This document shows positions 8,796 to 61,282 of a stretch of DNA of 64,000 bases, piece after piece (within the stretch, counting starts at the first letter, position 1; each line of letters opens with the position of its first letter). Where the stretch lies: assembly GCA_016218365.1 (NCBI GenBank), contig JACREF010000011.1, positions 135,094 to 199,093 of the forward strand, given 5' to 3'. Below the pieces are notes generated by a model. It made no database searches, was not told where the DNA came from, and was given only the letters and a program-made list of their open reading frames with translations. Made by a program: the position numbers and the translations under genes. This stretch comes from Gammaproteobacteria bacterium. GTDB taxonomy: Bacteria > Pseudomonadota > Gammaproteobacteria > SZUA-140.

Positions 8796-9053
8796 GAATG
8801 GCACTTACATAAGCGGTTTCATAAGCAATGTAGCGTGGGTTAACAGTCTGGCAAAGATGCTGTATGTGGAGTGCGGCGACACGTCACCACACTCCACAAC
8901 ACAGGCAGGCCCGCAGCGTGCACGCTTATTGCCTCTGCATTTTGGCTTAAGGTAGCCGGCGGGTAGCCTGGGTTGAGCGACAGCGAAACCCGGGTTTCAC
9001 TCCGTTCAACCCAGGCTACCTCCTATCAAAAACGCTTAAGTTAAGTGCCATTC
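8796..9053. mobile_element. Miniature inverted-repeat element family 1, copy a (long version)
   Basis: Terminal inverted repeats GAATGGCACTTACATAAG (left) and CTTAAGTTAAGTGCCATTC (right) bound 258 bp with no coding capacity. The right half is the shared core palindrome (GTAGCCTGGGTTGA ... GAAACCCGGGTTTC ... TCAACCCAGGCTAC); the left half adds about 135 bp with another hairpin (TGGAGTGCGGCGAC ... CACACTCCA). The flanks are TTCTCAGGCCC (8785-8795) and TTCTCCGACCC (9054-9064), matching at 9 of 11 positions, as expected of an aged 11-bp target duplication. It fills most of the 496-bp gap between chrA and the cupredoxin gene. The rest of that gap holds the chrA upstream region, with no clear promoter hexamers. 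Confidence 0.85.
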
Positions 9054-12498: not shown

Positions 12499-12597
12499 TT
12501 ACACAGAGACCGCTCAAAGACCCGGGCAGGGTAAACCCAGCGCCATTGACTCACCCTCATGATTCGTGTCTAATCTCCCTCGTTCAGCCGTTGAACA

Positions 12598-12993
12598 ATG
12601 GAGAGACTCGGCTTGCATCTTAATGATGAAACCCATTACAAGCTGCTGAAGTTACTGGAACAAAATCCCGAACTCAGTCAGCGTGAGTTGGCCAAGGAAC
12701 TGGGCATCAGTCTTGGCAAGGCCAACTATTGCCTGCAGGCCGTCATCGAGCGGGGCTGGGTCAAGGCCAAAAACTTTACCCACAGTTCCAACAAGCGTGC
12801 CTATGCCTACATCCTGACCCCCACGGGCATCGAACACAAGGCCAAGGTCACGCTGCGCTTTCTAAAGCACAAGGTTGCCGAATACGATGCCCTGCAGAAA
12901 TATATCGAGCAGCTGCGGCAAGAGGTTGACGACATGGAAACGGGTCTGCAGCCAACGCCACTGATCAATGTCGATCAGACTGAGCAACGTTAG
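12598..12993 (+). CDS. MarR-family EPS-associated transcriptional regulator
   Basis: The 131-residue protein carries a winged helix-turn-helix (LLKLLEQNPELSQRELAKELGIS at about 17-39, then KANYCLQAVIERGWVKAKNF). A C-terminal helix (AEYDALQKYIEQLRQEVDDM) suggests dimerisation by coiled coil. The sequence matches the small MarR-like proteins that occur at the head of exopolysaccharide loci in gammaproteobacteria. It is immediately followed by rfaH and the glycan cluster, so it probably controls that locus; its DNA site and effector are unknown. Confidence 0.9.
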   Translation: MERLGLHLNDETHYKLLKLLEQNPELSQRELAKELGISLGKANYCLQAVIERGWVKAKNFTHSSNKRAYAYILTPTGIEHKAKVTLRFLKHKVAEYDALQKYIEQLRQEVDDMETGLQPTPLINVDQTEQR

Positions 12994-13013
12994 TATCGAT
13001 AGTTACGAAAAAT

Positions 13014-13559
13014 ATGGATACTCACGTGCTTGAATCAATACAGCAGCCATTGACGCATCACCATCAGAAAGATCATTCCGGGGCATGGTATGCGATTCAG
13101 ACCAAACCCAGGCAGGAACGCCGTGCGCTGGAGCATCTCCAGAATCAGGGCTATGAGTGTCTGCTATTGCAGTGCCAGCGCGAGAGGGTGCGACAGGGTG
13201 CGCGAGCGCTCCTCGATGAGCCGTTGTTTCCGCGTTACCTGTTTATTCGCCTAAACTCGGTAGACAGCAACTGGGGGCCGATTCGCAGCACCCGAGGCGT
13301 CATCGGACTGGTCTGTTTTGGCGGGATCCCGGCTGTGTTGCCAGATGGTGTGGTCGAGGGGCTGGCGCAGCGCATGATCGTCAAGGAACATCTGTTTTGC
13401 GCCGGCGATCGGGTGCGGATCAGCGATGGACCGTTTGCCGGGCTGGAAGGGATCTTTGCCCAGGAGGATGGTATGGCCAGGGTGGTGATTCTGCTGGAGT
13501 TCATGCAACAACAGCAGCGACTGAGCATGCCGGTGGCAAATATCAGGCGGCTGGGGTGA
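13014..13559 (+). CDS. rfaH: RfaH-type transcription antiterminator (NusG paralogue)
   Basis: The 181-residue protein has the NusG N-terminal domain at about residues 22-115 (WYAIQTKPRQERRALEHL, DEPLFPRYLFIRL, IRSTRGVIGLVCFGG) and a KOW domain at about 125-180 (AGDRVRISDGPFAGLEGIF). The EPLFPRYLF and TRGV elements are those of RfaH rather than NusG. RfaH joins RNA polymerase at ops sites and lets it read through long, poorly expressed operons. An exact ops motif lies 95 bases downstream, before the glycan genes, so this copy probably acts in cis on the adjoining locus. It lies 20 bases after the MarR-type gene. Confidence 0.92.
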   Translation: MDTHVLESIQQPLTHHHQKDHSGAWYAIQTKPRQERRALEHLQNQGYECLLLQCQRERVRQGARALLDEPLFPRYLFIRLNSVDSNWGPIRSTRGVIGLVCFGGIPAVLPDGVVEGLAQRMIVKEHLFCAGDRVRISDGPFAGLEGIFAQEDGMARVVILLEFMQQQQRLSMPVANIRRLG

Positions 13560-13653
13560 GCTAGGCTTACCGATTGGCTGACTGCATCAATGTTTGTGGG
13601 TGCAAGTTAAACACATGTACTTACGTTTTTTGGAAATCAACGACTAATCCAAG

Positions 13654-13665
13654 GGCGGTAGCGTG
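13654..13665 (+). promoter_or_regulatory. ops element for RfaH recruitment
   Basis: The sequence GGCGGTAGCGTG is identical to the 12-base ops core known from E. coli rfa and capsule leaders. It lies on the + strand in the 354-bp leader between rfaH and the first glycan gene, exactly where RfaH loading is expected. The rest of this leader is occupied by a miniature inverted-repeat element (13731-13852). Confidence 0.85.
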
Positions 13666-13730
13666 TTCACAATCTGTTCAAAGCTATGGCGGCCACGGAC
13701 TAGCTTTGACAGATTTATAGTATTAGATGG

Positions 13731-13852
13731 GAATGGCACTTACTTAAGCGTTTTTGATAGGAGGTAGCCTGGGTTGAACGGAGTGAAACCCGGGTTTCGC
13801 TGTCGCTCAACCCAGGCTACTCGCCGGCTACCTCCTTAAGTAAGTGCCATTC
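13731..13852. mobile_element. Miniature inverted-repeat element family 1, copy b
   Basis: The 122-bp element has perfect 18-bp ends, GAATGGCACTTACTTAAG and its complement CTTAAGTAAGTGCCATTC. It is flanked by identical 11-bp direct repeats GTATTAGATGG (13720-13730 and 13853-13863). Its core is the GTAGCCTGGGTTGA palindrome in inverted orientation relative to copies a and c. It sits in the transcribed leader between the ops site and the first glycan gene, so the RNA there would form a strong hairpin. No coding capacity. Confidence 0.92.
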
Positions 13853-13913
13853 GTATTAGATGGTTTTAACCCAAGCACTCTTGTATCTTCGCGTAACGTA
13901 GCAAGCAACGATT

Positions 13914-15731
13914 TTGATAAACTCTAGCACATCCTCTGACGGCCTCTATACCTTGCTGGCTCAGCTTTTTCGGCACATCAATCGTCGCCGTCGTTATCAA
14001 TTCATGCTTTTGCTCGGTTTGACACTGGCCAGTTCTTTTGCGGAGGTTGTCAGTCTTGGTGCCGTGGTGCCCTTCATCGGCATTCTTACTCAGCCGGAAA
14101 AAGTGTTTAACGCCCCGTTAATGTTGGGAATTGTTCAAGGACTGGATGTCACATCGGCAGCGGATTTGGTGTTGCCCATTATCGTAGCGTTTTCCGCGGC
14201 TGCGCTTGTTGCTGGTGGATTACGCCTATTGTTACTGTGGGCCAGTATCCGGCTTGCAAATGCCACTGGTACTGATTTTAGTGTTGAAGTCTATCGCCGA
14301 ACTCTATTTCAACCCTATCACGTACATGTAGCCCGCAGCAGCAGCGAAATCATCAGTGGAACGACACAAAAGGTGGGAACTGCCACAAGCGTGTTGACCT
14401 CTTTAGTAACCGTAGTCACGTCAGCAATCTTGTTTGCAGCAATTTTAGCGACATTAATTTTGATTAACCCCATCATAGCAATAATAGCTGTGATCAGTTT
14501 TGGAGTCGGCTATGGTTTAATTGCATGGAAGACACGTCGCCGGTTAAAAAACAATAGCCAGTGTATTGCGCAACAACAAACCCAGGTAGTTAAGTCTCTA
14601 CAGGAGGGGCTAGGGGCTATCCGAGATGTTCTACTAGATGGTACCCAGGAAATTTACTGCGACGCATATAAAAAAGCCGTTCAGCAGTTACAGAGGGCGA
14701 CTGGAGAAAATCAATACATTACCCTAGCTCCTCGATATGTCATGGAGGCCTTGGGTATGATATTAATTGCCACTTTCGCCTACGCCCTGAGCCACCAACC
14801 GGGTGGTATTGGAGCCGCGCTCCCGGTATTAGGGGCACTGGCCTTGGGGGCGCAACGGCTGATTCCTCTTTTGCAGCAACTCTATAGTAACTGGACATTT
14901 GTAGTCGGTAGCCAAGCTACACTGAGCGACGTGCTTAACTTGCTTGAACAACCTCTGCCAGACGATGCCTACACATCATTACCCACACCGCTTATGTTTC
15001 AGAACACAATTTGTTTCGAAAATTTGCGCTTCCAATATGGTAGCGACGGTCCTTGGGTATTGGATGGTATCAACCTGACCATATCTAAAGGAGCACGAAT
15101 CGGCTTCGTCGGCAGCACTGGTAGCGGTAAAAGCACAGCGCTGGATCTGCTGATGTCCCTGCTTGAACCGACTCAGGGAAGAATTCTTGTAGATGGACAG
15201 CCAATCAGTGGCAAACATAGACGAGCATGGCAGCGCACCATTGCCCACGTACCGCAAAGCATCTATCTTGCCGATGCCACTATCGCCGAGAACATTGCCT
15301 TTGGTGTGCCGTCAGATCAGATTGATCTTGATCTTGTCCGGCGTGTCGCCAAGCAGGCACAGATTGCCGAATTCATAGAAAGCCGCCTTGAGGGTTATGG
15401 TGCTTTCGTGGGCGAACGTGGTATCCGTCTCAGCGGTGGTCAGCGTCAGCGTATTGGCATCGCTAGGGCGCTCTATAAGCAGGCAACAGTGATCATATTT
15501 GACGAAGCCACGAGTGCGCTGGACAGCTCCACTGAAAAGGCGGTTATGAGCGCCATAGAAAATCTCGACCGTACGCTCACTATTCTAATCATTGCGCATC
15601 GAATAACCACTCTTCAGAATTGCGATATGATTGTACAGTTGGAGCATGGGCAAGTGGTGTCGCAAGACTCGTATGATCATTTTATGAAGATCAACCCTGG
15701 CTTCCAGGGCTTGAGGAAGGTCGAGGCGTGA
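13914..15731 (+). CDS. ABC exporter (PglK/MsbA-like), probable glycan flippase
   Basis: The 605-residue half-transporter has an N-terminal six-helix membrane domain (about 25-330) and a C-terminal ATPase. Walker A is GSTGSGKST at about 400, the signature LSGGQRQRIGIARAL at about 506, Walker B VIIFDEATSALD near 525 and the switch His in IIAHR near 562. The start of the membrane domain (LLLGLTLASSFAEVVSLGAVVPFI) resembles PglK, which flips lipid-linked oligosaccharides. No Wzx-type flippase is found in the window. The likely start is TTG 13914; a Met near residue 31 is an alternative. It is the first gene after the ops leader. Confidence 0.85.
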   Translation: MINSSTSSDGLYTLLAQLFRHINRRRRYQFMLLLGLTLASSFAEVVSLGAVVPFIGILTQPEKVFNAPLMLGIVQGLDVTSAADLVLPIIVAFSAAALVAGGLRLLLLWASIRLANATGTDFSVEVYRRTLFQPYHVHVARSSSEIISGTTQKVGTATSVLTSLVTVVTSAILFAAILATLILINPIIAIIAVISFGVGYGLIAWKTRRRLKNNSQCIAQQQTQVVKSLQEGLGAIRDVLLDGTQEIYCDAYKKAVQQLQRATGENQYITLAPRYVMEALGMILIATFAYALSHQPGGIGAALPVLGALALGAQRLIPLLQQLYSNWTFVVGSQATLSDVLNLLEQPLPDDAYTSLPTPLMFQNTICFENLRFQYGSDGPWVLDGINLTISKGARIGFVGSTGSGKSTALDLLMSLLEPTQGRILVDGQPISGKHRRAWQRTIAHVPQSIYLADATIAENIAFGVPSDQIDLDLVRRVAKQAQIAEFIESRLEGYGAFVGERGIRLSGGQRQRIGIARALYKQATVIIFDEATSALDSSTEKAVMSAIENLDRTLTILIIAHRITTLQNCDMIVQLEHGQVVSQDSYDHFMKINPGFQGLRKVEA

Positions 15732-54602: not shown

Positions 54603-54724
54603 GAATGGTACTTACTTAAGGAGGTAGCCGGCGGGTAGCCTGGGTTGAGCGACAGCGAAACCCGGGTTTCACTCCGTTCAACCCAGGCTACCTCCTATCA
54701 AAAACGCTTAAGTAAGTACCATTC
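54603..54724. mobile_element. Miniature inverted-repeat element family 1, copy c
   Basis: The 122-bp element has ends GAATGGTACTTACTTAAG and CTTAAGTAAGTACCATTC. The C-to-T change in the left end relative to copy b is matched by G-to-A in the right end. Identical 11-bp flanks GGGACAGATTT (54592-54602 and 54725-54735) mark the target duplication. It is inserted next to a GGGACAGATTT...AAATCTGTCCCC REP hairpin. Confidence 0.93.
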
Positions 54725-61134: not shown

Positions 61135-61282
61135 ATAGGAAATAGGGGTCTGACCCGAATGGCACTTGATAGGAGGTAGCCTGGGTTGAACGGAGTGAAA
61201 CCCGGGTTTCGCTGTCGCTCAACCCAGGCTACCCGCTGAGGAAATAGGGGTAGGAAATAGGGGTCAGACCCCTATTTCCTTT
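61135..61282. repeat. REP hairpin (GGGGTCAGACCCC) split by a truncated family-1 element
   Basis: GGAAATAGGGGTCTGACCC precedes the element and GGAAATAGGGGTCAGACCCC TATTTCC follows; the latter is a perfect hairpin (61254-61281). It lies just before nagZ and may act as a terminator for the permease operon. Confidence 0.65.
61157..61240. mobile_element. Miniature inverted-repeat element family 1, copy d (truncated)
   Basis: The left end GAATGGCACTTGATAGGAGG and the full core palindrome are present in the same orientation as copy b. The right terminal repeat is lost after GGCTACCCGCTGAGG. It is embedded in a GGGGTCTGACCC REP hairpin. Confidence 0.8.

Follow-up and report, generated by a model that had tools for sequence, protein, structure and literature searches.

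We have found a short mobile element, a MITE, in the probable leader of a glycan operon that lies next to its own rfaH gene and behind an exact ops site. The DNA analyzed, here called the window, is a stretch of 64,000 nucleotides from a gammaproteobacterial draft genome of 2.26 Mb (33 contigs, 97% complete; assembly GCA_016218365.1, contig JACREF010000011.1, positions 135,094 to 199,093). We consider it probable that the element is a non-autonomous IS4-family MITE with a core of inverted GTAG-type REP palindromes, inserted in the leader of a glycan operon with a cis-encoded rfaH-ops unit, where it would be read through with a mild effect and would not work as an RfaH-dependent terminator. Table 1 collects the features of the region.

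Table 1. Features around the ops site and the MITE, in coordinates of the window
Feature	Position	Strand	Remarks
MarR-family EPS-associated regulator gene (TIGR04176)	12598..12993	+	NCBIfam 159.9 bits, cut-off 88
rfaH, specialised NusG paralog (TIGR01955)	13014..13559	+	NCBIfam equivalog 164.5 bits, cut-off 144.5
ops site GGCGGTAGCGTG, exact 12-mer	13654..13665	+	94 nt from the rfaH stop codon
Native leader hairpin, outside the MITE	13671..13715	+	5 nt downstream of ops
Target-site duplication, left copy GTATTAGATGG	13720..13730	+	
MITE with IS4-family terminal inverted repeats	13731..13852	+	122 bp; arms 13731-13748 / 13835-13852
GTAG-type REP palindrome 1, inside the MITE	13764..13794	+	a similar REP flanks the Y1_Tnp/RAYT gene
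GTAG-type REP palindrome 2, inverted	13790..13820	-	central CCCGGG common to both palindromes
Target-site duplication, right copy GTATTAGATGG	13853..13863	+	
First gene after ops: ABC transporter ORF, Pfam ABC_tran	13914..15731	+	TTG start, mechanical call

Structure, copies and insertion sites of the MITE

The two arms of the element are inverted repeats of 18 bp that match exactly, and the direct repeat GTATTAGATGG around it is identical at 11 of 11 bp, a match that at one given place has a chance of about 2.4e-7 (4 to the power of -11). The predicted RNA fold is very strong (-71.1 kcal/mol, z -10.1), as must be the case for a near-perfect inverted repeat. A previous sequence-only reading of the same DNA had proposed a transposed hairpin between the ops site and the first glycan gene, and the exact arms and duplication, the exact ops and the ABC transporter frame at 13914 bear this out.

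When the element was used as query against its own genome, 15 places matched it over its whole length with 95-100% identity; a further whole-length match had 85%, and there were many partial matches. Overlapping contig ends with 141 identical bases account for two of the 15 (L003 and L005), which are therefore a single insertion, so that the 15 places correspond to 14 insertions. The 11-bp duplication was exact in 12 of these near-full insertions, had one mismatch in another and failed in one. The sequence-only reading had called the duplication of the window copy fresh; it is indeed exact, but this does not set it apart from its sisters. Within the window itself there is a second near-full copy (about 54603-54724), and partial copies are found at 8950-9053 and 61166-61236. 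The element, 122 bp long with about 14 near-full insertions, has no coding capacity. It is a MITE, and recent like most of its sister copies. Neighbouring frames were readable on both sides at 13 of 16 places and, by a crude ORF-based call, were co-directional at 7, convergent at 3 and divergent at 3. We are dealing with an ordinary dispersed repeat. In a search of other genomes, 2 of 55 besides its own matched at E 1e-5, each over a single stretch of REP size (42 and 32 bases).

Among the duplications listed, 11 of 15 (the partial copies L025 and L026 included) start with GGG in one direction, unlike that of the window copy. Most likely an IS4-type MITE inserted here by chance, at a site that is atypical for it. 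Copies of the MITE were often located inside GGGTCAGAGTA boxes in this genome (e.g., L002, L012, L014 and L026). With up to one mismatch allowed, the 13-mer GGGTCAGAGTAAA was counted 32 times, some of these being duplicated flanks of the MITE copies themselves, and its reversed pattern 0 times. A GGGGWSAS motif has been reported in repeats beside RAYT-like genes (passages in PMC3733652), and the several favoured sites in GGGTCAGAGTA boxes fit this motif.

IS4-type ends around a core of REP palindromes

In order to identify the origin of the ends, the motif AATGGYACTTACTTAAG was scanned across 84,980 species genomes, and at least 117 stretches were found. Among the matches listed there were 16 pairs of ends at most 4 kb apart, 5 of them bounding elements of 1500-1531 bp and 11 bounding elements of 143-534 bp. 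We looked for a transposase in three of the five long elements. Those of Paraburkholderia madseniana and of a gammaproteobacterial MAG code for proteins of 458 and 472 aa, which scored 224 and 236 bits, respectively, with the IS4-family transposase model (cut-off 115) and both matched DDE_Tnp_1. In the long element of Halomonas sp. Y3 the transposase gene is in two DDE_Tnp_1 pieces, and the flanking repeats agree exactly over 11 bp. An exact duplication of 10-12 bp, with a small boundary shift allowed, surrounds 7 of the 16 elements among the matches listed in other genomes, while 9 of the 16 have none of 9 bp or more; for the long elements among these matches it is exact, of 10-11 bp, in 3 of 5.

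Since the same 18-bp ends are found on elements with an IS4 transposase, we take those of the MITE to be IS4-family ends. The window element shares its ends with an autonomous element, has a duplication of about 11 bp and is non-coding and multicopy, the marks of an IS4-family MITE. It differs from the IS4-family insertion sequences with ends GAATGGYACTTACTTAAG, whose 18-bp ends are the same, in that these carry a transposase and the MITE does not. No IS4_1 transposase over the cut-off was detected in its own draft genome (97% complete), where the single match reached 27 bits; the autonomous partner was possibly lost, left unassembled or located elsewhere. MITEs can outlive their autonomous partner, and we do not count a partner in the same genome among the requirements for an IS4-family MITE. 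The gene behind that single match, a DDE_Tnp_1 gene on contig C14, was considered as the mobiliser of the MITE and rejected, at 27 bits against the IS4_1 cut-off of 115; on that contig no GAATGGCACTTACTTAAG-like ends come within 3 kb of it on either side.

The interior of the element is of a different nature. Elsewhere in the genome a Y1_Tnp (RAYT) gene (G000:C22:239448-239756) has closely similar palindromes on either side, in inverted orientation, and because of these flanking palindromes we read the core as a GTAG REP pair of the kind described in passages of PMC3733652. The core has the GTAG tag, an imperfect palindrome and an associated RAYT, and the tag, the palindrome and the inverted pair are as in the GTAG REPs/REPINs with RAYT (the same passages of PMC3733652). 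Unlike those REPs and REPINs, the REP pair of the MITE lies between IS4-type ends flanked by a target duplication. The MITE is thus a chimera, two inverted GTAG-type REP palindromes between IS4-family ends, and an example of the enclosure of REPs by ends of this family. REPs alone are not known to make a target duplication.

We have seen different REP-type cores, GTAG- or CGTC-tagged, in short IS4-ended elements of other genomes (L136, L139, L146, L150 and L152). A tagged palindrome with a stem of at least 7 was present in 5 of the 11 short elements among the matches listed in other genomes. None of 300 trials reached 5 in either of two controls; for shuffled cores the count averaged 0.18, with 2 as the largest value, and for random stretches drawn from the same loci 0.51, with 3 as the largest. 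A looser palindrome rule, applied without a control, adds L145 (6 of the 11 short elements among the matches listed) and does not catch the window MITE; the strict tag test, with a perfect stem of at least 6, also misses it, as its stems have mismatches. These examples suggest that IS4 ends around REP-type cores seem to recur, and IS4-type ends may capture REPs repeatedly.

One more sequence in the core was inspected. GGAGGTAGCCTG, inside the MITE, was tried as a second ops and discarded, being 2 mismatches away from ops. It is the GTAG end of the REP and therefore recurs across the copies of the MITE. Near matches to GGCGGTAGCNTG (up to one mismatch) numbered 82 genome-wide, not above the reversed-pattern control of 135.

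The rfaH-ops unit and its relatives

Apart from the equivalog score, the product of the rfaH gene aligns to the E. coli RfaH chain 2oug_A with an E value of 3.7e-25. K10, E48, R73 and F130 of E. coli RfaH are identical in the window protein, I93 is replaced by V and F126 by L. Passages in PMC7593976 name K10, R73, E48, F130 and I93 for ops binding or autoinhibition, and 4 of these 5 are thus identical, I93 being the exception. The ops site is the only exact one in the genome. The best NCBIfam models for the first gene after it, MsbA, HepA and PglK, were all below their cut-offs. Downstream of the ABC transporter there are PseF-like and NeuB-like genes (both below the NCBIfam cut-offs), an Epimerase-family gene (PF01370) and a NeuC gene over the cut-off. 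By eye, no Shine-Dalgarno is visible before the first gene. No promoter-like site reached the scan threshold in 12500-14500 (shuffles had a mean of 1.7), no covariance match to the JUMPstart RNA (RF01707) was found up to E 10 in 13540-14000, and no Rfam family matched at the gathering score within the window; the six Rfam matches to the leader up to E 10 were all far under their cut-offs.

The location of rfaH beside a polysaccharide operon is that of the cis-encoded RfaH and specialised NusG paralogs (RfaH clusters CL2-CL8, UpxY and TaA). An HTH regulator as neighbour has been reported for cluster CL4 (passages in PMC7593976). The window is unlike these systems in having an exact E. coli-type ops after 94 nt and a MITE in the leader.

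We have searched for similar arrangements in other genomes. With its own genome included in both counts, 9 of 55 genomes had an RfaH match at E 1e-20, as did 70 of 369 class members at E 1e-25. The best match other than itself had an E value of 2.0e-42 with 49% identity over part of the protein, and the most identical one reached 50%. There was no second genome of the same genus among the RfaH matches of the 55-genome search, and no genome with the same locus in the related-locus searches (55 genomes; 369 class members). For comparison we used 35 RfaH-like loci, namely the window and 34 taken from the RfaH matches, the remaining class-member matches being left out. An exact ops on the same strand was present in 14 of the 35. 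In 13 of them, the window and 12 loci each from another family, it lies downstream of rfaH, at less than 100 nt in three (the window, L036 and L180), at 684-905 nt in nine and at 1435 nt in one; in the other one, L179, it is located just upstream. None of the 35 had an exact ops on the opposite strand. In 21 of the 35 the exact ops is absent from the stretch covered, several of these being cut by contig ends. The order rfaH then ops is hence a recurring arrangement, not a rule. Because 12 other families also have an exact ops no more than 1.5 kb behind rfaH, we regard this pair as a cis rfaH-ops unit.

The leader lengths that follow rest on mechanical start calls. The distance from ops to the nearest downstream start was 24-38 nt in 7 loci, 69, 80, 107 and 289 nt in four, and unreadable in two. 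In the window it is 248 nt, and it would be 115 nt without the MITE and one copy of the duplication (248 less 133).

Some minor regularities appeared in these loci. Six of them (L031, L037, L182, L190, L192 and L200) have an open frame of about 207-219 aa between rfaH and ops, and in the same six the distance from the rfaH match to ops is 684-788 nt, the letters just before ops being CTGCAT, CTGTAG or similar. The window and L036 have AATCCAAG before ops in common. In L179 (1421) the exact ops precedes the rfaH match itself by about 80 nt, an arrangement in which the rfaH transcript would be a target of RfaH.

Possible effects of the insertion on the leader

We propose that the MITE transposed into the probable leader of the cis rfaH-ops glycan operon. 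The leader would be transcribed from upstream of ops, and a polymerase carrying RfaH from ops would read through the element, which in the mRNA would form a self-contained hairpin of about 122 nt. In the predicted fold of the leader the MITE pairs with itself, and the mean predicted accessibility around the start codon is 0.63 both with the MITE and in the empty site. There would be two main effects, the lengthening of the ops-to-start distance from 115 to 248 nt and, by analogy with Correia and other MITEs, a double-stranded site for RNase III or an obstacle to 3' exonucleases. The MITE would not terminate in an RfaH-dependent manner, and expression is probably affected mildly, if at all. At present the likeliest outcome would be read-through with a longer leader, perhaps with processing by RNase III. 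Correia-element transcripts are cleaved by RNase III, and MITE folds stabilise or destabilise the mRNA (passages in PMC10969869 and PMC3733652). In the same two sources, Correia/NEMIS, ERIC and Chunjie are MITEs that are transcribed and processed; like the window element they are short and non-coding, with inverted repeats, a target duplication and a strong RNA hairpin, and are located beside or inside operons. The window MITE differs in its IS4-type ends, its 11-bp duplication, its core of two GTAG REPs and its location between ops and operon.

A longer leader could also be harmful. The insertion would damage the operon if, by moving ops and the loaded RfaH off the start codon, it weakened the recruitment of ribosomes to a gene without a visible Shine-Dalgarno. 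RfaH has been reported to recruit ribosomes to mRNAs that lack a binding site for them (passages in PMC13015549 and PMC7593976), and the 248 nt of the window compare with 24-38 nt in seven relatives and with 69, 80, 107 and 289 nt in the four others. However, the predicted accessibility of the start site is unchanged by the MITE, and in uropathogenic E. coli the hly ops is located 634 bp upstream of hlyC, yet rfaH mutants show reduced haemolysis (passages in PMC6775461), so that distance alone need not abolish the effect of RfaH. We consider such damage unlikely.

The leader has a second structure, the native hairpin located between ops and the MITE, which the sequence-only reading had passed over. 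It has a predicted energy of -19.9 kcal/mol (z -4.35, with 0 of 200 shuffles as good), starts right behind ops and belongs to a leader stretch with no second copy in the genome. When its last 2 pairs are opened, a tail TTTATAGT with 5 T of 8 follows (relaxed scan). This makes it at least as good an attenuator candidate as the hairpin of the MITE, and it might be the regulatory structure of the leader, as a pause or weak terminator after ops, with the MITE behind it by chance. That reading is improbable in our view, since 7 of the 11 other ops leaders whose start could be read are, at 24-38 nt, too short for such a hairpin, the U-tract is weak, the standard terminator scan does not pick the hairpin up, and neither the Rfam search of the window at gathering score nor the JUMPstart search of 13540-14000 up to E 10 gave a match.

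The sequence-only reading had suggested that the transposed hairpin could be an attenuator, one that stops or pauses the polymerase unless RfaH is bound. The position of the MITE between ops and gene and its strong fold would suit this role, and in E. coli systems in vitro RfaH has been reported to reduce pausing at hairpins as well as termination at some sites, whether Rho-dependent or intrinsic, the Thly intrinsic terminator included (passages in PMC2871177). A standard scan of 12500-14500 found 0 terminator-like sites (shuffles had a mean of 2.0). A relaxed scan of 13641-13930, with long loops allowed and no shuffled control, gave 8 combinations of stem and tail; among them was the MITE stem, with 15 pairs and the tail TTCGTATT (5 T of 8), and for this reason weak termination or pausing may take place at the 3' end of the element. 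That tail is broken and requires the last 3 pairs of the stem to be opened, and the MITE does not show the G+C-rich stem directly followed by a U-tract of an intrinsic terminator. Moreover, antitermination has been reported to be a minor part of the action of RfaH in vivo (passages in PMC7593976). The lack of a standard terminator and of a strong U-tract, the unchanged accessibility and the nature of the MITE as an ordinary dispersed repeat all speak against a hairpin that stops or pauses the polymerase, and we find an RfaH-dependent attenuator quite improbable. As for Rho, the 5' half of the MITE is G-rich (C/G down to 0.39), the windows of its 3' half are mildly C-rich (1.14-1.44) and paired in the predicted fold, and the native sequence downstream reaches a C/G of 1.86; there may be a change in Rho loading linked to the MITE.

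Least of all do we expect the two hairpins, native and transposed, to form together a leader with RfaH-dependent read-through or processing, in which the MITE would have been captured as a regulatory part of a closed circuit with a single target (one operon, one exact ops and one rfaH match over threshold); we hold this reading to be very improbable.

Going back to the read-through that we favor, the MITE has inserted cleanly into the leader of an apparent single-target rfaH-ops unit, which offers reporter experiments a ready-made design. A response of the hairpin to RfaH, should there be one, would provide a natural test of antitermination versus ribosome recruitment in a cis-encoded RfaH system. 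In the literature searched for MITE and RfaH together, we found no insertion of this kind in an RfaH leader described. Two details of the native hairpin were noticed by eye. Its arms (AATCTGT/ACAGATT) resemble GGGACAGATTT, the target of the MITE copy L010, and its loop contains an ATG frame of 5 codons, a candidate leader peptide ATGGCGGCCACGGACTAG.
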